From Cyanobacteria bacterium FACHB-DQ100 (GTDB lineage Bacteria; Cyanobacteriota; Cyanobacteriia; Leptolyngbyales; Leptolyngbyaceae), in the NCBI GenBank assembly GCA_014695195.1, contig JACJNW010000016.1:62001-126000 (forward strand): DNA of 64,000 nt, read 5' to 3'. The notes beneath the pieces were generated by a model, which saw only the letters and a list, made by a program, of their open reading frames with translations, searched no databases and was not told the DNA's origin. Positions 19,719 through 51,337 of this stretch are shown in pieces. The position numbers were made by a program, and so were the translations under genes. The first letter of the stretch is position 1; every line of letters begins with the position of its first letter.

Positions 19719-20897
19719 TTACGATTTGCTATCTTGCAGAATTCTGTTCGCGACAGCATTTTCACTAAAAAACTTCTTCTCAATTTCAGCCCAGCCACCG
19801 TAGCCTTTAGCGGTTGCCAGTGTCTTAACTGGAACAAACTGGCTCTTCAGCTCTTTGACCTGTGCAACGCTGTCGTTCAATGGACGATAGCCAATTTTGG
19901 CAAACTCCTGCTGTGCTTCCGATGTGTAGAGAAATTCAATAAAGGCTTGCGCCACCTGACGAGTCCCATGTTTATCAACATTTTTATCCACAATGGCAAT
20001 AGGATTGTCGATTGAGAAATTCGTTTCAGGAATGATATAGGGCAATTTTTGACCGTTCAGCGCCTTCAAGATCACTTCATTTTCATACGTGATTAGGGCA
20101 TCTCCTTGCTTCGCTTTAAAGAATGCGTCTGTTGCTTCGCGGGCGCTTTCAGGAAGGACAGGTGTGTTTCGATAAATTTTAGTGACGAACTCTCGTGCTT
20201 TCGCTTCACTGCCTCCATTGCTTAACGCCGCATTCCAGAGTGCCAGAAAGTTCCATCTTCCTCCACCAGAAGTTTGGGGATTGGGAGTCCCGACACTTAC
20301 CCCATCTTTTGCCAAATCAGCCCAAGTTTTAATTCGTTTGGGATTGCCTGCTTTAGTTACGATCGCCACAACTGACCGACTAGCAACGCTCTCATTCGGA
20401 AATTCCTTTTCCCATCCGGGTTGAATAAAACCAGCCTGCTCTAACTTTTTCACATCTGGAGCCAGTGAAAGATGAACAATATCGGCTTCTTGTCCCCCCT
20501 CAATTACGGCTAGGGCTTGTGGGCCAGAGGCACCATAGCTGGTATTAAATCGAACTGTTTGATTATGTTCTTGCTTCCACTTCTCGACAAATTTGGGAAT
20601 GATTTTTTCGTGCGCTGCTTGAGTGACTGAAAAAGACACGAGGTTGAGCGTCACATTGGCTTGTTGACTACCTAGTGTGAGGCTTGCGTTAGAAGAGGGG
20701 TTGCTGGAGCAAGCGCTAAACATCAAGCTCAAACTTAGACTAGCCACAAATAGAAGAATAAATGTCCGCACTAATGGGTTGGCTTGCAGAATTTGCACTC
20801 TGTGCTTCGTGATTCGGGCAGCGAGAGTTAACAAAACTGATTTTCCTTGAATCTGATTTAACACACCTGATCTAAGCTTGCTCATCTGCATCCTCAT
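19719..20897 (-). CDS. sbpA: Sulfate/thiosulfate ABC transporter substrate-binding protein
   Basis: A periplasmic sulfate-binding protein (SBP/CysP family), 392 aa as read. Family hallmarks include VSFSVTQAAHEKIIPKFVEKW, YGASGPQALAVIEGGQEADI, the SVGTPNPQTSGGGRWNFLAL ligand loop and the KQGDALITYENEVI segment. The hydrophobic signal ends in the lipobox-like SLMFSAC at about residue 61, so it is likely a lipoprotein. The 45-residue polar lead before the signal is unusual, and an in-frame GTG near 20798 would give a conventional signal. A perfect 26-bp palindrome lies 17 bp upstream of the ATG. The CysT/CysW permeases are not in this window. Confidence 0.93.
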   Translation of the reverse strand: MRMQMSKLRSGVLNQIQGKSVLLTLAARITKHRVQILQANPLVRTFILLFVASLSLSLMFSACSSNPSSNASLTLGSQQANVTLNLVSFSVTQAAHEKIIPKFVEKWKQEHNQTVRFNTSYGASGPQALAVIEGGQEADIVHLSLAPDVKKLEQAGFIQPGWEKEFPNESVASRSVVAIVTKAGNPKRIKTWADLAKDGVSVGTPNPQTSGGGRWNFLALWNAALSNGGSEAKAREFVTKIYRNTPVLPESAREATDAFFKAKQGDALITYENEVILKALNGQKLPYIIPETNFSIDNPIAIVDKNVDKHGTRQVAQAFIEFLYTSEAQQEFAKIGYRPLNDSVAQVKELKSQFVPVKTLATAKGYGGWAEIEKKFFSENAVANRILQDSKS

Positions 20898-20905
20898 TGT
20901 GTATG

Positions 20906-20949
20906 TTAATTAAGTACGGTAAATTTGTCGAATTACCGTACTTAATTAA
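20906..20949. promoter_or_regulatory. 26-bp sulfur-island operator inside an extended palindrome, upstream of sbpA
   Basis: The core 20915-20940 has halves TACGGTAA and TTACCGTA around spacer ATTTGTCGAA. It is the best copy of the motif in the window. Here the symmetry extends outward to 17-bp arms (TTAATTAAGTACGGTAA and its complement). It lies immediately before the sbpA start codon, the position expected of a repressor operator covering the promoter or 5' leader. Confidence 0.85.
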
Positions 20950-23398: not shown

Positions 23399-23424
23399 TA
23401 CTGTAACTTAATAGACAAATCGTA
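23399..23424 (+). promoter_or_regulatory. Degenerate copy of the 26-bp operator upstream of cysA
   Basis: Halves TACTGTAA and AAATCGTA around spacer CTTAATAGAC. The left half matches TACGGTAA at 7 of 8 positions and the right half resembles the TTATCGTA variant, but the central TCG is missing. It lies 36 bp before the cysA ATG. This is a weaker call than the other copies. Confidence 0.4.
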
Positions 23425-24531: not shown

Positions 24532-24693
24532 CTATAGCAAGCCTAATTCATTTGTAAAATCAAAGCCATTCTGCCCTCACCCTAGCCCTCTCCCTGGGGG
24601 AGAGGGAACAAGAGATTTGGCTCCCTTCTCCCTAGGGGAGAAGGGTTGGGGATGAGGGCGGAAAGGTTTATAACTCAATTAGGATTGCTATAG
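24532..24693. mobile_element. MITE-like element with 17-bp inverted ends
   Basis: Ends CTATAGCAAGCCTAATT (24532-24548) and AATTAGGATTGCTATAG (24677-24693) are inverted repeats differing at one position. The interior holds two strong hairpins, CCCTCTCCC/GGGAGAGGG and CCCTTCTCCC/GGGAGAAGGG, inside an outer CCCTCA...TGAGGG pair. There is no coding capacity. It separates cysA from the Rrf2 gene and could insulate or terminate the cysA transcript. Confidence 0.75.
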
Positions 24694-24755
24694 TGCAGAT
24701 CGTGGAACTTTCTCAATAGCTTTGTTTTATTGAAATTCTGCGATTTGCGCTAAAC

Positions 24756-24781
24756 TACACTAAATCGAGCGAATAAGTGTA
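24756..24781 (+). promoter_or_regulatory. Variant 26-bp operator over the Rrf2 gene start
   Basis: Halves TACACTAA and TAAGTGTA around spacer ATCGAGCGAA. Symmetry extends to a perfect 10-bp inverted repeat, AAACTACACT and AGTGTAGTTT (24752-24785). It aligns without gaps to the sbpA operator, sharing TAC, TAA, the CGAA at the end of the spacer and GTA. It ends 6 bp before the ATG of the Rrf2 regulator, strongly suggesting autoregulation. Confidence 0.75.
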
Positions 24782-24787
24782 GTTTAT

Positions 24788-25249
24788 ATGCAAGTAAATT
24801 CTCAGATTTGTACACTTCTGGAATTGTCGTCCAAAGTCGAATATACATTGCTAGCGCTTCTAGAGCTTGCAAGCCACCGTGATCAGCCTTATCCACTGAC
24901 CTCTGCTGCAATTAACGAAAAGCACGACATTCCTGAACGCTATCTTGAGCAGATTTTGGCAACGTTACGCCGAGGTGGTATCGTTCGGAGTCTGCGCGGA
25001 TCGAAAGGTGGATTTGTCTTAGCGCATGATCCGCATGAAATCACGCTCCTAGATATCGTTACGCTCATGGATGGGGAGCGTAAACAGCGGAATATTGATG
25101 CTGCTCCTACGGTCGAGCGGAAAATCATTTACAAAATCTGGTATGAAAACAATGCGCGATCGCAGGAACTCCTCGGATCGACCACGCTTAAGGATCTCCT
25201 CCAACAGCGAGATGCGCTCCAGCATTCAAATCCGATGTACTATATCTAA
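24788..25249 (+). CDS. Rrf2-family regulator 1 (no Fe-S cysteines)
   Basis: A 153-aa Rrf2 protein. The winged helix covers ELSSKVEYTLLALLELASHR, then IPERYLEQILATLRRGGIVR and the wing SLRGSKGGFVLAHDP. A helical dimerisation segment follows (ITLLDIVTLMDG). The loop that carries three cysteines in IscR and NsrR (after LMDG) contains none here, so it should not bind an Fe-S cluster. This matches the CymR-type subgroup that controls sulfur metabolism. The start codon lies only 6 bp after a palindrome, leaving little room for a ribosome site. It is my first candidate for the protein that binds the 26-bp operators. Confidence 0.9.
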   Translation: MQVNSQICTLLELSSKVEYTLLALLELASHRDQPYPLTSAAINEKHDIPERYLEQILATLRRGGIVRSLRGSKGGFVLAHDPHEITLLDIVTLMDGERKQRNIDAAPTVERKIIYKIWYENNARSQELLGSTTLKDLLQQRDALQHSNPMYYI

Positions 25250-25379: not shown

Positions 25380-25405
25380 TACGGTAATCCTATCGGTTTA
25401 TCGCT
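25380..25405 (+). promoter_or_regulatory. 26-bp operator, upstream of the DUF-TauE-NIL operon (site 1)
   Basis: Halves TACGGTAA and TTATCGCT around spacer TCCTATCGGT. The left half is perfect, and the spacer has TCG at the conserved position. It lies 52 bp before the ATG at 25458 and 23 bp before a second copy. Confidence 0.7.
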
Positions 25406-25428: not shown

Positions 25429-25454
25429 TACGGTAAGTTTATCGGACTGCTTTG
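25429..25454 (+). promoter_or_regulatory. 26-bp operator half, adjoining the start codon at 25458 (site 2)
   Basis: The left half TACGGTAA and the central TCG (spacer GTTTATCGGA) are conserved, while the right half CTGCTTTG is not. It ends 3 bp before the ATG. Together with the site at 25380, the centre-to-centre distance is 49 bp, near five helical turns, which would allow cooperative binding on one DNA face. Confidence 0.6.
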
Positions 25455-25457
25455 GGT

Positions 25458-25886
25458 ATGAGAGAGTTGGAAAAAGAACAGGAAGCAACGACAGAGTTCA
25501 GCCTCCGAGGATTGTCTCTAAAAAAAATTCGGGGCTGGCTCTTATTCGCGATCGGTTGGTTGCTCTCGCCGCTGTGCTGGTGGAATGACCTGATTTTCAA
25601 TCTGCCTGTCGCATATGGATTTGGCTATGTTTGCAGCCTGTTCTCTTCTAGCTGGGTATTGCCAGGAACGGTGATTGGATACTGGTTCTCAAATTTAATC
25701 GGAATTCTGCTGATGCAAGCAGGTGCGACCGACGTTTTTCAATCCCAAGAGCGGAATTTGAAGAAAGAACTGCTGTGGGGTGTCGTTTCTTCTTCGATTT
25801 TTACGATCGCGGTTGTTGTACTCATTCAGTTAAAAGTGCTTGATCTCCCTGGCATTGATACAACCCTGCTTCTGGGAGGTCAGTAG
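25458..25886 (+). CDS. Membrane protein of unknown function, TauE-linked
   Basis: A 142-aa protein with a charged N-terminus, then three or four hydrophobic segments: IRGWLLFAIGWLLSPLCWW, VAYGFGYVCSLFSSSWVLPG, VIGYWFSNLIGILLMQAG, and a final IFTIAVVVLIQLKVL helix. No named domain is recognised. It is the first gene of a three-gene operon with a TauE/SafE transporter (3-bp spacing) and a NIL-domain protein, and carries two sulfur-island operators upstream. A partner or accessory role in sulfite or sulfonate transport is inferred from this context only. Confidence 0.75.
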   Translation: MRELEKEQEATTEFSLRGLSLKKIRGWLLFAIGWLLSPLCWWNDLIFNLPVAYGFGYVCSLFSSSWVLPGTVIGYWFSNLIGILLMQAGATDVFQSQERNLKKELLWGVVSSSIFTIAVVVLIQLKVLDLPGIDTTLLLGGQ

Positions 25887-25888
25887 AA

Positions 25889-26686
25889 ATGGACTACTTA
25901 CTGCTAACTGCGCTCAGCTTTGCCGTGGGAATCGTCGTCGGATTGACTGGGATTGGTGGTGCATCGCTAATCACGCCCATGTTAGTGTTTATGTTTCAAG
26001 TGCCTGCCTCAGTTGCCGTGAGTTCGGATGTCGTTGCAGCAACCTTAATGAAGGTGATTGGGGGAGTCAAGCACTGGCGGCAGCAAACAGTAGATTGCGC
26101 GGCTGTGAAGTGGTTAGCATTTGGTAGTGTGCCGGGTTCGCTCTGCGGCATTGCACTATTGCACAAATTAAGGAATGTTGAAAGTTTAAATTTAGATGGA
26201 TTGCTATTGCATCTAATTGGATATGCAATTTTATTAGTAACGGGAACTGCATTATTACAGTTGTTGTTAATGACTCTCGCACCCCAATATGAACTGCCGA
26301 CTCTACCCAAGCTAGATTTAGAAACTTATAGCGGGCGGGGAAGCGCGATCGCGATCGGTGCAATTCTCGGTTGCATTGTGGGATTAACAAGCGTGTCTTC
26401 GGGTTCGATGTTTGCATTGGTGCTAATTGCTTTCTTTCAACTCGATGCCCGCAAATTAGTTGGAACCGATTTAGCTCAAGCAGCAATCTTATTAGGGTTT
26501 ACCTCGATCGGGCATTTGACATTGGGAACCGTAGATTGGAGCTTAGTGCTTCCCATTTGGCTCGGCTCAGTCCCTGGAGTGTTGATTGGGGCAAGACTTT
26601 GTAAGCTAATTCCGCAACGCCCGCTCCGATTTAGTATCTATTTACTTTTGGTCATGGTGAGTTGGAAATTAGCACATACAGCTTAG
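25889..26686 (+). CDS. TauE/SafE-family sulfite exporter, paralogue A
   Basis: A 265-aa membrane protein with about eight helices. The two internal repeats typical of TauE/SafE are visible: GIVVGLTGIGGASLITPMLV with DVVAATLMKVIGGVKHW near the N-terminus, and ILGCIVGLTSVSSGSMFALV with DLAQAAIL in the second half. Members export sulfite, sulfoacetate or similar organosulfur anions. It starts 3 bp after the preceding membrane protein gene and should be translationally coupled. A second TauE gene with a different partner (DUF1634) is at 29054-29890. Confidence 0.88.
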   Translation: MDYLLLTALSFAVGIVVGLTGIGGASLITPMLVFMFQVPASVAVSSDVVAATLMKVIGGVKHWRQQTVDCAAVKWLAFGSVPGSLCGIALLHKLRNVESLNLDGLLLHLIGYAILLVTGTALLQLLLMTLAPQYELPTLPKLDLETYSGRGSAIAIGAILGCIVGLTSVSSGSMFALVLIAFFQLDARKLVGTDLAQAAILLGFTSIGHLTLGTVDWSLVLPIWLGSVPGVLIGARLCKLIPQRPLRFSIYLLLVMVSWKLAHTA

Positions 26687-34055: not shown

Positions 34056-34081
34056 TACGGTAATTCAATCGGTTTATCGTA
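34056..34081 (+). promoter_or_regulatory. 26-bp operator upstream of a 35-aa membrane peptide
   Basis: Halves TACGGTAA and TTATCGTA around spacer TTCAATCGGT. Outer symmetry extends to AAATACG and CGTATTT (34053-34084). It lies about 235 bp before the small gene at 34316 and more than 500 bp before the rhodanese, which has its own copy. Confidence 0.75.
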
Positions 34082-34315: not shown

Positions 34316-34423
34316 ATGAATCGTGCTACTCCCCTTCTCACCCTAACGCTGGTCTGTATCACTACTCTGCTTATCCTGCTGAGCATACTTCTTATTCCCT
34401 TGTTCTTTGGAGGGATCAGCTAG
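34316..34423 (+). CDS. 35-aa single-span membrane peptide
   Basis: ATG at 34316 to TAG at 34421-34423. The peptide starts MNRATPLLTLT, continues into an almost pure Leu/Ile/Val helix (LVCITTLLILLSILLIPLFF) and ends GGIS. A TCAGGAAATTTG ribosome site is well placed. It resembles the small one-helix subunits common in cyanobacterial membrane complexes, but matches none I recognise. It is downstream of a strong operator and could be a regulatory or assembly subunit of one of the island's transporters. Confidence 0.55.
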   Translation: MNRATPLLTLTLVCITTLLILLSILLIPLFFGGIS

Positions 34424-34527: not shown

Positions 34528-34553
34528 TCCAGTAAACCGGTCGAAATACCGTA
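34528..34553 (+). promoter_or_regulatory. 26-bp operator upstream of the rhodanese
   Basis: Halves TCCAGTAA and ATACCGTA around spacer ACCGGTCGAA. The centre GTCGAA and the right half agree with the consensus. It ends 51 bp before the rhodanese ATG. The left half resembles that of the ssuE site (TGCAGTAA). Confidence 0.7.
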
Positions 34554-34604
34554 TTTTTGGAGCGCTCATTCCTTTTACAACCCTCATCATTTCAGGTTAA
34601 GGTC

Positions 34605-35579
34605 ATGATTCGGAAATTACTGCGTCTCAGGCTGAAGAAGCCCAAAGTTCTAGCGGTGTTAGCTGCGCTGCTAGTTAGCCTCATTGCCATTCCAGCTTTT
34701 TCGGGTTCGCCGTTAATGGCAAGCCAAAGTGCAACCATTCAGTTTGTTTCCCCGGATTGGGTAGCGAAAAATAGCAGCGATCGCAATCTCCGGGTTCTAG
34801 ATGTTCGCATTAACCCATTGGAGTATTTTGCAGGGCACTTGCCAAATGCCGTTCATATTGCAGACAACACATTTCGCGGTCCCAACGGCTTGCTGCCTGT
34901 GCAATATTGGAACACAAGCAAGTTAGGGCAGCTTTTCTCGCAAGCAGGGGTATCAAATAATAGCCGCGTGTTGGTGTACTCGGATGGGCGCGATGTTCTC
35001 GGCGCAACTATGGTGGCTTATTTGTTAGAACGATCGGGCGTGAAAGATATTGCTGTGTTAGATGGTGGATTTGCGGCGTACAAGACATCTGGGCAACCTG
35101 TAACCCAAGAATTTCCTAAGTATCAGCCGACTCGCTTTACCGTTCAGGATAATCCCTTAATTCGAGTGACGCTTGCGGACGTGCGCGGCTTTCTGAATCA
35201 ACCAACAGTCAAGTTCATTGATCCAAGACCACCTAAATTGTTTAGTGGTGAAGAGAAGATCTGGACGCGCAATGGTCATATTCCGGGAGCGCGAAACATT
35301 CCTTGGGTATCGTTTACAACGGGCAATCCAGCGACGAGCGAAGGAAACTTCCACAAGCTGAAGTCTTTGGATGAAATTAAGCAAATCCTAGCATCGAAGA
35401 AGATTACGCCTGCGGACAATGTGATCGTATCGTGCAGCACCGGGCGGGAAGCAACATTACAATACGTCGTGCTGAAACATCTATTGAAGTATCCCAAAGT
35501 GCGGGTTTACGAAGGATCGTGGACGGAGTATAGCCAGTCAGATCTACCTGTTGAAACGGGTGCTGATAAGGTGGCTTAA
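34605..35579 (+). CDS. Exported two-domain rhodanese (thiosulfate/3-mercaptopyruvate sulfurtransferase)
   Basis: A 324-aa protein with an N-terminal signal or membrane anchor (VLAVLAALLVSLIAIPAFSG), then two rhodanese domains. The first (VLDVRINPLEYFAGHLPNAV) has Asp in place of the catalytic Cys (VYSDGRDVLG) and is structural. The second (FIDPRPPKLFSGEEKIWTRN) carries the active loop CSTGRE with Cys277. It would transfer sulfane sulfur in the periplasm or at the membrane. The start is the ATG at 34605 behind AGGTTAAGG; the frame stays open further up through the operator zone. A dedicated 26-bp operator links it to the sulfur regulon. Confidence 0.92.
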   Translation: MIRKLLRLRLKKPKVLAVLAALLVSLIAIPAFSGSPLMASQSATIQFVSPDWVAKNSSDRNLRVLDVRINPLEYFAGHLPNAVHIADNTFRGPNGLLPVQYWNTSKLGQLFSQAGVSNNSRVLVYSDGRDVLGATMVAYLLERSGVKDIAVLDGGFAAYKTSGQPVTQEFPKYQPTRFTVQDNPLIRVTLADVRGFLNQPTVKFIDPRPPKLFSGEEKIWTRNGHIPGARNIPWVSFTTGNPATSEGNFHKLKSLDEIKQILASKKITPADNVIVSCSTGREATLQYVVLKHLLKYPKVRVYEGSWTEYSQSDLPVETGADKVA

Positions 35580-36548: not shown

Positions 36549-36986
36549 TTAGATGTAGTACATCGTAATCGGCTGCTGGAAATAATTGCGTTTGTCTAGA
36601 AGATCTTGCAAGCTGTTTTTCTCCAGCACATCATCTGCTGCTTTTCTCACGGTTTGCCAAATTTCAGAAATAGCCCTGACCGAAACAGACTCAGAATCAT
36701 CGTTCGCCTCAGATGAATCGCCCCCTTCCATACAGCTGACGATTTCAAGCAGCGTAATCTTCCACGGCGGTCGCGATAAAAGATACCCTCCTTTCTTTCC
36801 ACGCTCACTCGAAATTAACCCTCCTCGTCTCAGGGTTGCCAGTAATTGCTCTAGGTAGCGATCGGGAATATTCTGAGCAGCTGCGATCTGACGAATTTGG
36901 AGCGTCTCACCACTGTTGTAAATGGAAGCGAGTTCCAGCATCGCCATGAGTGCATATTTTGTTCGACCTGAAAGTTCTAGAAGCAT
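36549..36986 (-). CDS. Rrf2-family regulator 2
   Basis: A 145-aa Rrf2 protein paralogous to the gene at 24788. It has ELSGRTKYALMAMLELASIY, IPDRYLEQLLATLRRGGLIS and the wing SERGKKGGYLLSRP. The dimer helix follows (ITLLEIVSCMEGGDS). The IscR-type cluster loop has a single Cys instead of three, so a conventional Fe-S site is unlikely. The two end alike (DLLDKRNYFQQPITMYYI against DLLQQRDALQHSNPMYYI). I see no clear copy of the 26-bp operator in front of it. It may bind the same or a related site. Confidence 0.9.
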   Translation of the reverse strand: MLLELSGRTKYALMAMLELASIYNSGETLQIRQIAAAQNIPDRYLEQLLATLRRGGLISSERGKKGGYLLSRPPWKITLLEIVSCMEGGDSSEANDDSESVSVRAISEIWQTVRKAADDVLEKNSLQDLLDKRNYFQQPITMYYI

Positions 36987-37368
36987 GGCGGAGTTTCGGG
37001 AAAATGAGCAAGCCGTTTTAGAATTAGGGCAAACGTATTTTTCTATTTATCGATCGAGGTATGGACTTTTCTCAAAATATAGGGTCTTATTCATAACTTC
37101 AAATATTATTTGTTCTTAAAATCATCACCTTAATTTATTATGCACCTGAACGCCTCACTTCAACAAATCCGTTGTCTAGGTTGCTACATCAGATATTAAG
37201 AAACATTTTCGATAGAACGAGTACAAGAAACGAGATTCTCAGCAGTCGGGCGGCTTATAGGCTTTTAAAGAAATGATCTCAATTCTCCTAAAAGTCGATT
37301 GGATTATGTGGTTATTCCTGGAAGAAGTCAGTAACATAGAGGTAGATGTTTTCTCATTAGAATGACAA
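36987..37368. other. Intergenic region between Rrf2 regulator 2 and a zinc-ribbon peptide gene
   Basis: About 380 bp, A/T rich near the Rrf2 gene. It must hold two divergent promoters. No repeat or operator copy is convincing. The stretch from 37240 contains short A/T-flanked purine runs only. Confidence 0.45.
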
Positions 37369-38241: not shown

Positions 38242-38267
38242 TACGGTAAATCGGTCGAATTAATGTG
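38242..38267 (+). promoter_or_regulatory. 26-bp operator upstream of the Crp-type regulator
   Basis: Halves TACGGTAA and TTAATGTG around spacer ATCGGTCGAA. The left half and central TCGAA are perfect, while the right half is partly degraded. It ends 70 bp before the ATG at 38338. Confidence 0.7.
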
Positions 38268-38337
38268 TTTTTCAGATGATCTTTGTTGATCGCCTTATGT
38301 AGCTATCCTGCACTTCTGTTAGATCCGAGGCTTGCTC

Positions 38338-38931
38338 ATGCAGTCCATTCTTCCCTGTGTTGTTTCCCGATTGCCAGCCCAATCTGCAACGCGAACGTTT
38401 AAACGTCGATCAACAATTCCGCTTCAACAAATTGCGCTTTGGCGAATTGAATCGGGAGTGGTACGAACCCTCAGTTGGCTAGAAGATGGCTCAACCGTCA
38501 CATTGAGCTTATGTGGCGCAGGAGATGTAGTTGGGAAGTTTCTCTGTGCGATCGATCCCTATCAAATCGAGTGCCTAACTGATGTTGAGGTCACGCCACT
38601 TTCTCCGAATGAGTGGCATCCTGATCCTGCTTTTCTACTGGAGCGAGTACAGCAGGCTGAAGAGTTCATGTTGATTCGCAGCCATCGCCGAGTGGAGGAG
38701 ATGCTGTTAAAGCTACTCACTTGGCTATCGAAGAAGTTTGGGCGTGAAGTGCAGCATGGACACTTGATTGAACTGCGCCTGACGCATCAAGACTTAGCAG
38801 AAATGCTAGGAACCACTCGCGTGACGATTACCCGTGTCCTTAAGCAATTCGAGCAGCAAGGCATTGTTCAGCGACTGCCGAATCAGGTGACATTACTGCA
38901 ACCGGAAGCAATCTGGCACTACGAGATTTAA
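38338..38931 (+). CDS. Crp/Fnr-family regulator (CysR-like)
   Basis: A 197-aa Crp-family protein. The N-terminal half forms the cyclic-nucleotide-type beta roll (LWRIESGVVRTLSWLEDGST, LCGAGDVVGKFLCAIDPYQI), with no clear cyclic-nucleotide phosphate cassette. It is followed by the dimer helix and a helix-turn-helix (LTHQDLAEMLGTTRVTITRV, about 160-180). Cyanobacterial CysR, a Crp-type activator in the sulfate-transport region of Synechococcus, is the nearest functional analogue I know. A 26-bp operator in front suggests it is itself sulfur regulated. Its own binding site is expected to be a shorter Crp-type palindrome, not the 26-bp motif. Confidence 0.85.
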   Translation: MQSILPCVVSRLPAQSATRTFKRRSTIPLQQIALWRIESGVVRTLSWLEDGSTVTLSLCGAGDVVGKFLCAIDPYQIECLTDVEVTPLSPNEWHPDPAFLLERVQQAEEFMLIRSHRRVEEMLLKLLTWLSKKFGREVQHGHLIELRLTHQDLAEMLGTTRVTITRVLKQFEQQGIVQRLPNQVTLLQPEAIWHYEI

Positions 38932-42268: not shown

Positions 42269-42294
42269 TACGGTAATTCTATCGAATTAACGTA
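42269..42294 (+). promoter_or_regulatory. 26-bp operator upstream of the TPR gene
   Basis: Halves TACGGTAA and TTAACGTA around spacer TTCTATCGAA, one of the best copies. It ends 16 bp before the ATG at 42311, a typical repressor position. Confidence 0.8.
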
Positions 42295-42310
42295 ATTTCT
42301 AGAATTGTTT

Positions 42311-43567
42311 ATGGTGATTGACACACAAGGGCTAACTGTTCGGACAGATGCGGAGGGCGCGATCGCTGCTCTCGACCGCTTCATCGACCAATCTCTGTAC
42401 TACGGCAATCAAGCTGAATCCGCAATTTTACAAGCGCTATCCCTCGATCCGACCTGTGCGATCGCGCAAGCGTATGCAGCCGCGTATTACCTTTCTCAAG
42501 AAACTGCGATCGCGCATCGCACTGCTATGGCTCATCTCAAAGTTGCACAACAGTATGCACCCATCGCAACTGAACGAGAGCAATGGTATATCAGCGCGAT
42601 CTCGGCTTGGGCGCGGGGGGACATATCTGAAGCCATTAATCTGCATGAAGCGATCGCGCTTCACTATCCCCAAGATTTGATCTCGGTTCAACAGGGACAA
42701 TATCACTACTTTTATCGGGGAGATGCGAGACGATTGCTGCAAATTGCTGAAAAAGTGCTGCCTATGAATTTAGACAGCCCGCATCTCCACTATTTATATG
42801 GAATGACTGCGTTTGGATTAGAGCAGTGTGGTGAGGTTGATCAGGCGATGAAAGTCGGATTACAGGCGATCGCATTGAATCGTGCTGATCCGTGGGCACA
42901 GCACGCGATCGCCCATGTGTTAGAAGAGCAGAACCGCCCCGCAGCAGGCATTGCTTGGATGGAGAAGCATTCGGATACTTGGGAGCAATGCAACTCAATG
43001 CTATACACCCATAATTGGTGGCACGTTGCACTGTACTACTTAGCGTTAGGCAATGTTGAAAAGGTGTTAGCGCTCTACGATCAACACATTTGGGGAAGAG
43101 CGAATTCGTTCTCATCAAAAGATCAAGTTGGAGCGATCGCAACCTTAATCAGATTAGAGTTGCAAGGTGTAGAAGTTGGGCAACGCTGGAACGCGATCGC
43201 TCCTTATCTTCATGCACGCTTGCACGAACACAGATTACCGTTTCAAGATTTGCATTATGTTTATGCACTAGGGCGTGCAGGATACACGGATTGGGTGAAT
43301 GATTTGCTGCACAGTTGGACAAGTCATGCACAACGAGTTACACCTGAATCACAGTCCATTTGGCTTCAGGTCGTTCTTCCTGTTGCAAAAGGGCTGATTG
43401 CCCATGCTCAAGGCAATTGGACAATCGCGATCGCGCAATTGCAGCCAAACTTACCAAAGCTACAAGCAGTCGGTGGAAGTCGAACTCAACGGAAATTGTT
43501 CGAGCAAATCTATCAACACGCAGTCTTGCAGCATGAATCTCAGTGGCAAGCCTTTAAAGCTGGCTAA
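42311..43567 (+). CDS. TPR-repeat protein of the TTC38-like type
   Basis: A 418-aa soluble helical-repeat protein. TPR-like pairs occupy most of its length: AESAILQALSLDPTCAIAQA, EAINLHEAIALHYPQDLIS, AMKVGLQAIALNRADPWAQH. The segment TWEQCNSMLYTHNWWHVALY with LALYDQHIWG is typical of the TTC38 family. No enzyme motif is seen. The biochemical role of such bacterial proteins is unknown to me. A strong operator places it in the sulfur regulon, and its 3' end overlaps the convergent PhnD-like gene by 14 bp. Confidence 0.82.
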   Translation: MVIDTQGLTVRTDAEGAIAALDRFIDQSLYYGNQAESAILQALSLDPTCAIAQAYAAAYYLSQETAIAHRTAMAHLKVAQQYAPIATEREQWYISAISAWARGDISEAINLHEAIALHYPQDLISVQQGQYHYFYRGDARRLLQIAEKVLPMNLDSPHLHYLYGMTAFGLEQCGEVDQAMKVGLQAIALNRADPWAQHAIAHVLEEQNRPAAGIAWMEKHSDTWEQCNSMLYTHNWWHVALYYLALGNVEKVLALYDQHIWGRANSFSSKDQVGAIATLIRLELQGVEVGQRWNAIAPYLHARLHEHRLPFQDLHYVYALGRAGYTDWVNDLLHSWTSHAQRVTPESQSIWLQVVLPVAKGLIAHAQGNWTIAIAQLQPNLPKLQAVGGSRTQRKLFEQIYQHAVLQHESQWQAFKAG

Positions 43568-45810: not shown

Positions 45811-46965
45811 TCAGTCTACGGTAGTGATTGATTGTTGTTGCTTTGGAAATTTCTCATTCGCAACAATCTCTCCAAACGGGCTGAACATCACTTTCTGCTC
45901 GGTTGGAGTGAAGTGACTTAAAGGCAACTTAGGAAATAGCAATTCTGCGACGCGATAGGCTTCTTCCAAGTGTGGATAGCCTGACAGAATGAAGGTATCA
46001 ACTCCGATGTTGGAATACTCCAGCATTCGCGCCGTGATCGTATCTGCATCTCCGACTAACGCCGTTCCCGCTCCTCCTCGTACCAAACCAACACCCGCCC
46101 ACAGATTCGGACTAATTTCCAATGCTTCACGACTCCCGTTGTGCAACTGAGTCATGCGTTGCTGTCCTTCAGAATCCATTCGGGCATAAGCTTTCTGTGC
46201 AGTCGAGATCGCGTCCTCATCAACATACCGGATCAATTGATTCGCAGCATCCCAAGCTTCACCTTCTGTCTCGCGCACAATAACGTGCAGGCGAATGCCG
46301 AATTTTAGCGATCGTCCTTGTTGTTCCGCCAATCGCCGCACCGATTGAATCTTTTCAGCAACCTGTTCTGGTGGTTCACCCCAAGTTAAATAGGTATCGA
46401 CGTGCTTTGCAGCAATCTCTTTAGCAATCGGTGAAGAACCCCCAAACCAAAGCGGAGGATAAGGTTTCTGAACGGTCGGAAACAGCAGTTTTCCACCCTG
46501 AACGTTGAGATGGTCACCTTTCTGAGTGACTTCGTTTCCTTGAGCAATTTCGCGCCAAATCGCTAAAAATTCATCGGTTAAGCGATAGCGATCGTCGTGG
46601 CTCAAATGCAGTCCATCACCCGCTAATTCAACTGGATCACCACCTGTTACCACATTGATCAACAAGCGTCCATTCGATAGTCGATCGAAGGTTGCCGCCA
46701 TCCGAGCAGCAACTCCAGGAGAAACTAATCCCGGACGTACTGCAACCAGAAACCGCATTCGTTGCGTCAACGGCATCAGTGTAGAAGCAACAATCCAGGC
46801 ATCTTCGCAAGAACGACCTGTTGGCAGCAATGCTCCGAAAAAGCCTAAATGATCGACTGCTTGAGCAATTTGTTTCAAATAATCATAGTCCGTCGCTCGT
46901 CCCCCGATCGAGGTTCCAAGGTAACGACCATCTCCGTGAGTTGGAATAAACCAAAGAACTTGCAT
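45811..46965 (-). CDS. ssuD: FMNH2-dependent alkanesulfonate monooxygenase
   Basis: A 384-aa LLM-class flavin monooxygenase that cleaves the C-S bond of alkanesulfonates to give sulfite and an aldehyde. SsuD hallmarks are the [17 protein letters not shown] start, [79 protein letters not shown], then the [20 protein letters not shown] and [14 protein letters not shown] ends. The length is normal. I use the ATG at 46965; the frame is open a further 14 codons into the end of ssuB. It is the last gene of the ssuADCB-type operon. Confidence 0.96.
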
Positions 46966-46984
46966 CAATGCTTCTCCTGATTGT

Positions 46985-47776
46985 CTATCTGCGTACTGGA
47001 ACTTCAAAAATTGATAAATCAGCCGAATTCCGAGGCTTAGAAGCCTTCTCTGATTGCATGACTCGTGCTAGAACCTGCTCAACGAGATGGATAAAGGCTG
47101 GACTACTGCGATCGCGAGGGCGTGGCAGAGAAATCGGAAGGTCGATCGCAATCTCACCTGCTTCGAGCAAAATCACGCGATCGGCAAGTGCGACTGCTTC
47201 ATCGACATCGTGTGTCACCAGTAGAGCAGTAAATTGCTGCTCCTGCCAAAGCTGTTCGATCAAGTGCTGCATCTCACGCCGAGTCAGAGCATCTAAAGCA
47301 CTGAGCGGTTCATCGAGAAGCAGTAGACGCGGATTGCTCACTAACGCTCTTGCTAAAGCAACACGCTGCTTTTGTCCTCCAGAAAGAACTAGTGGAAAGT
47401 CCTGCGATCGCTCTTCTAATCCAACTTGCTGCAATGCCCAAATTGCTTTATCTTTCCAGCGATGCCGAACCCCTAATCCCACATTGTTCAGCACTCGCTT
47501 CCAGGGCAACAATCGCGCATCTTGAAACATGACACGGGCATTGGAATTGAGAGAGCGCAAAGGTTCTCCGTTTATCAAAATTGTGCCGCTTGTCGATCGC
47601 TCTAATCCTGCAATCAAGCGTAATAACGTGCTTTTGCCGCATCCACTCCGACCGACGATCGCAACGAACTGACCTGCTGCAACCTCTAAATTTAGGTCAC
47701 GCAAAACGCGCTGCTGACCGTAGGTTTGGCTTAACTGCCGGAGTTGTAAGGCTGCTCCTAAACTGGGTGATGTCAT
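46985..47776 (-). CDS. ssuB: Aliphatic sulfonate ABC transporter ATP-binding protein
   Basis: A 263-aa ABC ATPase (from the ATG at 47776). Walker A is GRSGCGKST, the Q loop is in [11 protein letters not shown], the signature is LSGGQKQR, Walker B is [11 protein letters not shown], and [14 protein letters not shown] carries the H-loop. The [18 protein letters not shown] stretch is typical of the SsuB/TauB group. The C-terminal tail is somewhat longer than in E. coli SsuB. It sits between ssuC (its upstream frame overlaps the ssuC end by a few bases) and ssuD (19 bp). Confidence 0.95.
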
Positions 47777-47789
47777 TGATTTCCCTGCC

Positions 47790-48572
47790 TTAAGCAATTT
47801 GATAACTGGGGTGCCACTGTAGCAGCTTTGTTTCTAAGAATTTCGCGATTGTATCTGCAACTTTTCCAAGCAACGAATACATCAAAATGCTGAATACCAC
47901 GACATCTGTTCTCATGAATTCTCTAGCATTCATCGCCATATATCCGATTCCAGAATCAGATGCAATTGTTTCAGCAACAATTAGAGTGAGCCACATAAAA
48001 CCGAGTGCATATCTCAAGCCGACAAGAATCGAGGGAATTGCTCCAGGTAAAATGACCTGCCAAAACAACCCTGTAGAACTTAAGCCGTATACTTTTCCCA
48101 TTTCAATCAACCCTCGATCGACTGTCCGAACTCCGTGAAAAGTATTGAGATAGATGGGAAAAAATACGCCAATTGAAACTAGAAAGAGCTTTGCTTCCTC
48201 GCCAATGCCGAACCATAGAATCACAAGAGGAATCATGGCTAGATGCGGAATGTTTCGCAACATTTGCACTGTGGTATCAAGGAGCTTTTCAGCTACAGGA
48301 AGCGAACCCGTCAGCAAGCCTAATCCAAAGCCGATCGATCCGCCGATCACTAAACCTGTAAATGCGCGAGTGGTACTCACCCACAGATTTCGGAACAATT
48401 CACCCGTACTGGCTAACTGAATTCCAGCCTGAACCACCGCAGTGGGAGCCGGGAGAACACGAGTGGATAAAATTCCAGCCTGCGCTAATCCCTGCCACAG
48501 AACAATCAGCACGATCGGCACTGCCCACGGAACAAGCTGCTTGGCTCTAAACTTACGAAATGTTTTCTGCAT
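47790..48572 (-). CDS. ssuC: Aliphatic sulfonate ABC transporter permease
   Basis: A 260-aa inner-membrane permease with about six helices. The EAA loop contacting SsuB is seen as [20 protein letters not shown] followed by [19 protein letters not shown]. The N-terminal [20 protein letters not shown] and the [20 protein letters not shown] segment are SsuC/TauC-like. It should form a homodimer in the importer. It is 6 bp downstream of ssuA and translationally linked to ssuB. Confidence 0.95.
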
Positions 48573-48578
48573 GACAAC

Positions 48579-49652
48579 CTATTGCTGAACTTTCGCGACT
48601 TCTTGAACCTTCACGGATTTGGGCAGTAAGCCCAACTGAAGAAAGGTATCTGCAATTTGCTGCTGATAGCTCACAACATCGGGCTTAATCGCTTGAACGC
48701 CCGAAGGACGACGCTCTAACACCTCTTCTAATACAGGTGCTTCAATTCCAAGCTGTGGTGATAGTTGTGCGGCAGCTTCTTTCACATTCGCCTTTGCCCA
48801 AGCATCTGCTTTCTCAATTTCTTCCACGATCGCTTTTACTTGCTCTGGATTTTTCTCTGTGAATGGTTTTGCAGCTAAATAAAATTCCCGATTTGCAACT
48901 AAGCCCTCTCCATCTCGGATCACTCGCGCTTCAGTTGCTCGCTTTGCCGCAGTAAAAAACGGGTCCCAAATGACCCAAGCGTCGACCGTTCCTTGTTCAA
49001 AGGCTGCTCTTGCATCCGCAGGCGGCAAAAATACAGGCTGAATCTCTTCGTACTTTACACCTGCCTCTTTCAACGCTTGCACCAGAAAAAAGTGAACATT
49101 GGAGCCTTTATTGAATGCAACTTTCTTCCCCTTGAGATCTTTCACGGACTGAATCGAAGAATCTTTTCGCACCAAAATCGCCTCTCCCTTTGGGTTTGGG
49201 GTTTGATTCGCAATATAAACAAGAGGTGCGCCTGCGGCTTGAGCAAAGACTGGCGGAGCTTCCCCGGTATGTCCAAAATCAATACTGCCTGCATTGAGCG
49301 CCTCAAGTAGCTGAGGCCCGGCTGGGAATTGTGTCCATTGCACTAAAACACCTTGTCCTTTTAATCGTTGTTCAAGGTTGCCTTTCGCCTTCAAAATGTT
49401 GAGCGTACCGAATTTTTGATACCCCACCCGAAGGACTTTGCCTTCAACATTCTGCGTGGTAGACGTATTGGTTGCGGAAGTTGGCGCAATTGCATTAGAC
49501 GAACTGCTGGCAGAACAAGCGCTTAGGACAACATTGATCCCAAAGCCAAGCGTGCATAACACGGCAAACGATCGTGTCAGACGAAATTGCTCTCGCTTAG
49601 CTTGTTTACCTCTATTTTCATCGATCGAGGTTCTTTTCAATGCTGTGAACAC
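48579..49652 (-). CDS. ssuA: Aliphatic sulfonate substrate-binding lipoprotein
   Basis: A 357-aa binding protein of the SsuA/TauA/NMT1 group. A basic N-terminus and hydrophobic segment end in VVLSACSASSSS, a lipobox with the Cys near residue 46. The mature part shows LRVGYQKFGTLNILKAKGNL, LEALNAGSIDFGHTGEAPPV, DLKGKKVAFNKGSNVHFFLV and VDAWVIWDPFFTAAK, all family motifs. It captures alkanesulfonates in the periplasm. It is the first gene of the operon ssuA-ssuC-ssuB-ssuD. A near-perfect 26-bp operator begins 19 bp before its ATG. Confidence 0.95.
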   Translation of the reverse strand: MFTALKRTSIDENRGKQAKREQFRLTRSFAVLCTLGFGINVVLSACSASSSSNAIAPTSATNTSTTQNVEGKVLRVGYQKFGTLNILKAKGNLEQRLKGQGVLVQWTQFPAGPQLLEALNAGSIDFGHTGEAPPVFAQAAGAPLVYIANQTPNPKGEAILVRKDSSIQSVKDLKGKKVAFNKGSNVHFFLVQALKEAGVKYEEIQPVFLPPADARAAFEQGTVDAWVIWDPFFTAAKRATEARVIRDGEGLVANREFYLAAKPFTEKNPEQVKAIVEEIEKADAWAKANVKEAAAQLSPQLGIEAPVLEEVLERRPSGVQAIKPDVVSYQQQIADTFLQLGLLPKSVKVQEVAKVQQ

Positions 49653-49671: not shown

Positions 49672-49697
49672 TACGGTAAATCGATCGGGTTACCGAA
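49672..49697 (-). promoter_or_regulatory. 26-bp operator upstream of ssuACBD
   Basis: Halves TACGGTAA and TTACCGAA around spacer ATCGATCGGG. The CGGTAA/TTACCG inner arms are perfect. It lies 19 bp before the ssuA start codon, a position suited to repression when sulfate or cysteine is plentiful. Confidence 0.85.
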
Positions 49698-50702: not shown

Positions 50703-50728
50703 TGCAGTAATTCGGTAGGTTTACCGCA
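50703..50728 (+). promoter_or_regulatory. 26-bp operator upstream of ssuE
   Basis: Halves TGCAGTAA and TTACCGCA around spacer TTCGGTAGGT. The halves are inverted repeats of each other except one position. The spacer has TCGG shifted towards its start. It ends 42 bp before the ATG. Confidence 0.65.
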
Positions 50729-50770: not shown

Positions 50771-51337
50771 ATGTCTTATGTTTTAGCGATCGCAGGCAGC
50801 CCTTCTCATCCTTCAAGAACTTATAGCCTCTTAGAAGAGGCATCTAAACAGCTAGAATCGGCGGCGATTGAAACAAGGATTCTCTCGGTTCGGGATCTGC
50901 CTGCGGAAGTTCTGGCACTTGGACAGTACGACAGTCCAGCCTTGGAAGAACCAAAAGCGTTACTTGAGAAAGCAGCAGGCATTATTATCGCAACTCCGAT
51001 TTACAAAGCTTCGTATACTGGTGTTCTCAAAGCATTTTTGGATCTGTTACCTCAAAAAGCTCTGGTCGGTAAGATTGTTCTGCCCATTGCGACTGGTGGC
51101 ACGATTGCTCACTTGTTGTCGATCGAATATGCGCTCAAGCCCGTCTTGTCCGAACTCGGAGCACGTCACTTTATCAGCACAGTTTATGCTGTGGATAAGC
51201 AAATTCAGCGACAAGCCGATGATACGCTTCAACTTGAGGAAGAACTTGAGGAACGTCTAGACCAGTCTTTACAGGAGTTTATTTCCGCAATTCAAAGCAC
51301 TGCATCTACGTCTCAGGTGCTGGTTCATGCGAGTTAA
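50771..51337 (+). CDS. ssuE: NADPH-dependent FMN reductase of the SsuE type
   Basis: A 188-aa flavodoxin-fold reductase that supplies FMNH2 to SsuD. SsuE features are VLAIAGSPSHPSRTYSLLEE, GIIIATPIYKASYTGVLKAF, LDLLPQKALVGKIVLPIATG and a GTIAHLLSIEYALKPVLSEL segment. The length and order match the family. A GATTAGGAGTTC ribosome site precedes the ATG. It is encoded divergently, 1.1 kb from ssuA rather than inside the operon, and has its own operator, so both halves of the two-component monooxygenase can be induced together. It could also serve the monooxygenase at 39435. Confidence 0.93.
   Translation: MSYVLAIAGSPSHPSRTYSLLEEASKQLESAAIETRILSVRDLPAEVLALGQYDSPALEEPKALLEKAAGIIIATPIYKASYTGVLKAFLDLLPQKALVGKIVLPIATGGTIAHLLSIEYALKPVLSELGARHFISTVYAVDKQIQRQADDTLQLEEELEERLDQSLQEFISAIQSTASTSQVLVHAS

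Follow-up and report, generated by a model that had tools for sequence, protein, structure and literature searches.

A predicted CymR-like Rrf2 repressor with a diverged operator over its own gene in a candidate cyanobacterial sulfur regulon

What does an Rrf2 protein without cluster cysteines control in a cyanobacterium, and which protein reads the unusual palindrome that covers the start of its gene? Both questions are raised by a locus in a 64,000-nucleotide stretch of Cyanobacteria bacterium FACHB-DQ100 (hereafter the window; genome G000, 5.5 Mb), in which the original prediction saw a cluster-free Rrf2 protein, here called Rrf2#1, as a candidate master repressor with a variant operator over its own start. 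The closest named relative at the Rrf2#1 gene is cyanobacterium FACHB-63 (96%). We consider it probable, with considerable room for doubt, that Rrf2#1 is a cluster-free, CymR-like repressor of sulfur genes and of itself that is coupled to CysK. The sites, regulon, conservation, clade and tail behind this explanation were read from the sequence, whereas the identity of the binding protein, repression, CysK coupling and the ligand are what we infer.

In this explanation, the cyanobacterial Rrf2 protein whose gene usually lies above cysK would have a local, cluster-free paralog in Rrf2#1. The latter would bind 26-bp palindromes just above the starts of sulfur-acquisition genes and repress them when sulfur is plentiful, and its presence on a diverged palindrome over its own start would form a negative loop. 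The MYYI tail would dock into CysK, as in Bacillus CymR, and CysK would keep the repressor on the DNA; under sulfur starvation, O-acetylserine would accumulate and loosen the Rrf2#1-CysK complex. For CymR itself, PMC2940859 describes DNA binding that is stabilised by CysK, with CysK sensing the cysteine pool via O-acetylserine. According to PMC12895370 (see also PMC4961446), CysE and CdiA each dock into CysK by a C-terminal isoleucine tail; CymR is listed there as another CysK partner with such an isoleucine (PMC12895370).

The genome holds four Rrf2 genes. In a tree built from 69 distinct proteins, a part of all Rrf2 matches found, Rrf2#1 falls in clade A (18 rows, support 99/92), the second Rrf2 protein of the window (Rrf2#2) in clade B, and a third (G000 C28:1447, L003) in a widespread type, U, which we take to be probably the Slr0846 type; the fourth is distant and IscR-like. 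The recognition helix is nearly identical across A, B and U in the alignment, and two further paralogs of the same genome share the helix type and the tail of Rrf2#1. U differs from clade A in several respects: cysK lies directly below U in 29/32 distinct cases (a count that leaves out three clade-A duplicates, L100, L114 and L123, and two duplicate genomes, G003 and G012) compared with 0/18 for clade A and 0/8 for clade B, and U has cysteine at two alignment columns (in 30 and 29 of its 32 rows) where clade A has not kept it. The one U-adjacent cysK that was checked scored 471.6 bits with TIGR01139, above its cut-off.

Rrf2#1 exceeds the family cut-offs of both PF02082 (30 bits) and TIGR00738 (102.3 bits; cut-off 73.3). 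Fe-S regulators of the Rrf2 family such as IscR and NsrR carry three cluster cysteines. Rrf2#1 has the fold of IscR, NsrR and RsrR but was predicted to be missing these three residues, and this proved correct: the triad is absent from the alignment and the sole cysteine is residue 8. Across the 18 clade-A rows, no alignment column is more than half cysteine (highest, 8/18). An Fe-S sensor was rejected on the missing triad and on a score of 73.7 bits against the IscR equivalog, whose cut-off is 207.55.

The proposed likeness to CymR held in part. As in the CymR proteins of B. subtilis and S. aureus, Rrf2#1 combines the Rrf2 fold with a lack of the Fe-S triad, a C-terminal isoleucine and sulfur/cysteine genes below the predicted sites, and its structure model (mean pLDDT 84) finds its best match among solved structures in CymR (2y75). 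However, Rrf2#1 reaches only 91.4 bits against the NCBIfam CymR equivalog, with a cut-off of 195 (U itself, 105.4); its palindrome is a cyanobacterial one with a YCGATCGR centre; and an adjacent cysK is a CymR-like feature of U, not of Rrf2#1. Judged from its sequence, Rrf2#1 appears CymR-like in design, and not a CymR by the curated cut-off.

MYYI or MFYI forms the C-terminal end of 67/69 distinct Rrf2 proteins and is conserved yet unstructured (residues 151-153 of the Rrf2#1 model fall below pLDDT 50); the clade-A row of G040, on a long branch, is without it. Since 4cic, which is titled T. potens IscR, has this tail too, the tail is neither specific to CymR nor proof of sulfur sensing. The CymR/CysK idea for Rrf2#1 nevertheless appears strengthened by the conserved tail together with the place of the universal paralog above cysK. 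A similar tail, MYFI, ends Rrf2 relatives of the epsilonproteobacterial Sulfuricurvum (L029-L035, L037), and one cysE gene that has an operator above it, in G017, codes for a C-terminal isoleucine too.

The common form of the operator is TACGGTAA-N10-TTACCGTA, and a matrix built from 38 sites gave the symmetric consensus TACGGTAAATCGATCGATTTACCGTA. All 38 training sites came from clade-A genomes and none from clade-A-less genomes, so that scores in clade-A genomes are partly circular. The window contains nine sites of at least 18 bits (0 in 200 shuffles), and eight of these stand 3 to 64 bp above an ORF start, mostly of sulfur genes (Table 1). Besides the variant there are ten window sites, eight of them at 23.5-35.8 bits and the remaining two at 19.5 and 11.6. 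The window accounts for all four of the sites in the genome that have no more than one mismatch. The common-form sites thus appear to mark a sulfur regulon, and their positions would fit a repressor. The alkanesulfonate genes below one of them include an SsuD above the TIGR03565 cut-off.

Table 1. Predicted operators, Rrf2 genes and associated features of the window
Feature	Position	Strand	Score, evidence and context
Common-form operator	20915..20940	.	35.8 bits; 17 bp above sulfate-binding-protein gene (19719-20897, minus)
Weaker operator	23399..23424	.	19.5 bits; 36 bp above sulfate ABC ATPase gene (23461)
Variant 26-bp operator, TACACTAAATCGAGCGAATAAGTGTA	24756..24781	+	Predicted; above Rrf2#1 gene; pairing reaches 24751-24786
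Rrf2#1, 153 aa, clade A	24788..25249	+	PF02082 102.8 bits; tree
Codons of C-terminal MYYI tail	25235..25246	+	MYYI/MFYI in 67/69 distinct Rrf2 proteins; last residues pLDDT <50
Operator	25380..25405	.	25.8 bits; above membrane protein / TauE genes (25479-26686)
Second operator, half-kept, in tandem	25429..25454	.	11.6 bits
TauE/SafE family protein	25889..26686	+	PF01925 138.3 bits; below tandem sites
Operator	34056..34081	.	34.0 bits; also in G007
Operator	34528..34553	.	27.7 bits; above rhodanese gene (ORF 34557-35579; PF00581)
Rrf2#2, second Rrf2 paralog, clade B	36549..36986	-	PF02082 116.3 bits; tree
Operator	38242..38267	.	26.5 bits; above Crp-family regulator gene (38332-38931; PF13545)
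Operator	42269..42294	.	33.5 bits; above TPR-like protein gene (42305-43567; weak TPR match)
Operator	49672..49697	.	35.2 bits; above ssuA-like gene of alkanesulfonate genes (45811-49652, minus)
Operator	50703..50728	.	23.5 bits; above ssuE-type FMN reductase gene (50771-51337; TIGR03567 above cut-off)

Relatives carry sites above the same membrane protein / TauE genes, where the second tandem site is stronger in G001/L020 and G004, and further sites above cysE (G017), a cysK paralog (G029), cysT (G020), rhodanese genes, and genes for glutathione-transferase-like and sulfatase-modifying-factor-like proteins. Other sites in relatives lie inside ORFs or above genes without an obvious tie to sulfur (short-chain dehydrogenase, dienelactone-hydrolase-like protein, 2OG oxygenase, porins), which counts against a purely sulfur-related reading of the regulon. 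Genes below sites were judged in a selection of regions and classed for a part of them, as 20 protein entries (six double-covered), with some of the others classed by similarity to window proteins. Several individual sites are of separate interest. No ORF of at least 90 aa begins within 450 bp of the operator at 34056, and the next candidate target would be either a hydrophobic ORF of 35 codons or else an RNA that is not translated (34316-34423). A second Crp paralog of the genome, 92% identical to that of the window, has an operator of 30.4 bits above it (G000 C6:41004, L187). The genes below two sites, G008 C278:844 (L188) and G010 C54:7127 (L180), belong to the 'iron uptake porin' family NF033921, which the gene above the U-cysK pair resembles by eye.

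The variant operator ends 6 bp before the Rrf2#1 ATG, the spacing originally described. Its arms (8 bases each) pair at 7/8 positions and the pairing continues outward (TAAAC...GTTTA); the window has four TAC...GTA 26-mers with at least 7/8 paired arm positions, whereas 200 shuffles averaged 0.08 and never exceeded 1. The operator occupies the same place in G007 (= L019), G006 and G001 (= L020), and G004 has an intact left half but a decayed gene-proximal (right) half. Across four genomes (the window, G006, G004 and G001, with the near-identical G007 omitted and the rows ungapped), 18/26 bases are invariant within the site versus 3/90 at -130 to -41. The variant palindrome is a conserved island with a clean footprint. 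The claim of an operator over the Rrf2 start was therefore borne out as a real and conserved feature, most likely a self-operator, and the predicted self-control of a sulfur regulator by Rrf2#1 is well supported at the sequence level.

Other parts of the claim needed revision. Symmetric change of the two halves applies to positions 4-5 (GG to AC), but the A at position 20 is asymmetric in all five genomes, and the centre, proposed to be a shared CGAA, lies nearer to YCGATCGR in the matrix of the common form. A GG-to-AC change in both halves is not what simple decay would yield. In G010, an exact hybrid operator joins one TACACTAA half to one TTACCGTA half; it stands 0.8 kb past the clade-A gene and has a luciferase-like monooxygenase gene below it. 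A site in G002 pairs AACACTAA with a common half. CACTAA halves inside common-type operators favour a single reader that binds the variant less tightly, and the G010 hybrid likewise suggests one reader for both half types. One-mismatch matches to the variant pattern in 58 genomes were solely the four known variant sites, and at up to two mismatches the matches in these genomes were scattered, with no excess over the reversed control. A sigma-70 scan gave three promoter-like matches, where shuffles gave 1.3, and all three lay away from the operator. The interval from the ABC ATPase gene to the operator contains a repeat-like stretch (CCCTCACCCTAGCCCTCTCCC..., ~24565-24665) that is absent from the 160 bases above the gene in L019, a 96%-identical relative. 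In L020 (= G001:C72:9095-9551), Rrf2#1 is split over two frames, by a broken gene or an assembly error, and the variant operator is intact.

How widely sites accompany clade A was examined across genomes. Sites with up to two mismatches averaged 5.3 in 16 clade-A genomes versus 0.76 in 42 others, and the reversed-pattern control gave 2.25 and 2.17 in the same genomes (Mann-Whitney p 4e-8, and 2e-6 within the family, both with kinship ignored). Of the 42 clade-A-less genomes, 17 were placed by a tree protein and 25 by the number and score of their Rrf2 matches. Nine genomes with A and without B had 10, 7, 8, 4, 6, 4, 7, 2 and 1 sites, and G003, alone in having B but not A, had 1, so site number appears to track clade A, not clade B. 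Rrf2#2 is accordingly an unlikely reader of the common sites, on the evidence of a single genome in 1060 contigs that is 96% complete.

Above the clade-A genes themselves, common-form sites were found in eight genomes outside the window's group, at 16.6-33.7 bits (33.7 in G009, 31.2 in G019, 29.4 in G023, 26.2 in G018, 25.4 in G040, 25.1 in G017, 21.5 in G012 and 16.6 in G029). The window's group, with its variant form, scores 11.7-13.7 bits, with 11.7 for the window itself. Self-sites were weak in G002 (L103, 12.6 bits) and G010 (12.4 bits), and none was found above the clade-A genes of G002 (L104), G034 and L021. These weak and missing self-sites count against our main explanation, as do the low score of the variant and the fact that clade A never stands beside cysK. 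The self-site at least equals the best sulfate-binding-protein site found in G009, G017, G019, G023 and G040, and falls below it in G012, G018 and G029. A general rule that self-sites are weaker was thus rejected: it is true of the window's group and of G012, G018 and G029, and fails in 5/8. Tuning of the variant to a different affinity is accordingly one possible reading, weakened by these five genomes.

The reader of the common sites may instead be U, which would then be the main sulfur repressor, with Rrf2#1 a secondary copy that competes or fine-tunes; we regard this as a serious possibility, though not the one we would choose. In 28/31 genomes without clade A, and thus outside the training set, a sulfate-binding-protein gene has a site of at least 10 bits near its start (0.02 expected from shuffles), and in 19/31 such a site reaches at least 15 bits (0 expected). 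The scan covered -350 to +120 of 68/80 matches in 47/51 genomes, with L259 and L269 dropped as truncated and ten matches left out. Another protein must therefore read the operator in these genomes. The operator looks older than clade A, and the universal Rrf2 probably reads it where clade A is missing; among the genomes searched, none had a sulfate-binding protein and lacked U. The cysT site of G020 and sites between ssuA and its neighbour gene in G026, both genomes without clade A, point the same way, as do the cysK below U and the shared recognition helix. Yet site number climbs with clade A, and no site of at least 10 bits stands above any U or clade-B gene examined, whereas many clade-A genes have one. 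With the operator so widespread and two paralogs sharing the helix type and tail of Rrf2#1, the 'master' role first proposed for this protein can stand only as a candidate role.

If U or Rrf2#2 were to read the variant operator and so control Rrf2#1, the arrangement would be a cascade instead of self-control. That both variant halves changed together and stayed constant in four genomes would suit it, and all five variant-group genomes also have clade B; in G018, a perfect TCCACTAA palindrome accompanies the common-form site above the clade-A gene. G018, however, is without clade B among the proteins examined, G010 and G002 combine CACTAA halves with common ones, and variant sites are not in excess elsewhere in the genomes, which leaves a cascade unlikely in our view. 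Slightly more doubtful still is a two-tier circuit with split operator codes, in which a phylum-wide, CysK-coupled U would control Rrf2#1 as a repeater via a private CACTAA-type operator and Rrf2#1 would run an enlarged CGGTAA-type regulon. CysR is a regulator of the Crp type, for which a palindrome of 26 bp would be a long site. That the palindromes belong to an unrelated regulator, such as the nearby Crp-family or LysR-type protein, with Rrf2#1 a mere target, seems improbable to us: genes of both families lie in or beside the regulon, but site number follows an Rrf2 clade, and a G056 Rrf2 gene that does not belong to clade A is accompanied by four sites within 6 kb. In its favour, CysR of Synechococcus elongatus is known to control sulfate assimilation, acting on sulfur acquisition genes as Rrf2#1 is predicted to do. 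CysR and Rrf2#1 belong to different protein families, and one of the operators stands above the window's own Crp-family gene. Least credible of all is an RNA hairpin over the ribosome-binding region in place of a DNA operator. The palindrome does end just above the ATG and its extended arms pair, but its length, outer bases and centre match the DNA operators, and comparison of relatives revealed no compensating changes in the arms.

No Rrf2 sulfur regulon in cyanobacteria appeared in the titles and abstract openings of the literature matches listed, and the named cyanobacterial sulfur regulator in the literature text available was CysR, from one strain. The present analysis points to an operator of the Rrf2 type over the sulfate-binding-protein gene of most cyanobacterial genomes sampled, and to a regulator gene beside cysK. 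If our preferred explanation is right, CymR-type control would extend into another phylum, and Rrf2#1 would clearly exemplify a duplicated regulator whose self-operator has diverged.

Two further observations concern other Rrf2 proteins. The G056 protein outside clade A (C21:20179-25831; L183, L139), one of whose four nearby sites lies inside an ORF, may be an independent sulfur paralog. About 90 bp above several clade-B genes, at 36990-37100 in the window, there is a TCGATCGATAAA-type element that is a possible Rrf2#2 site.
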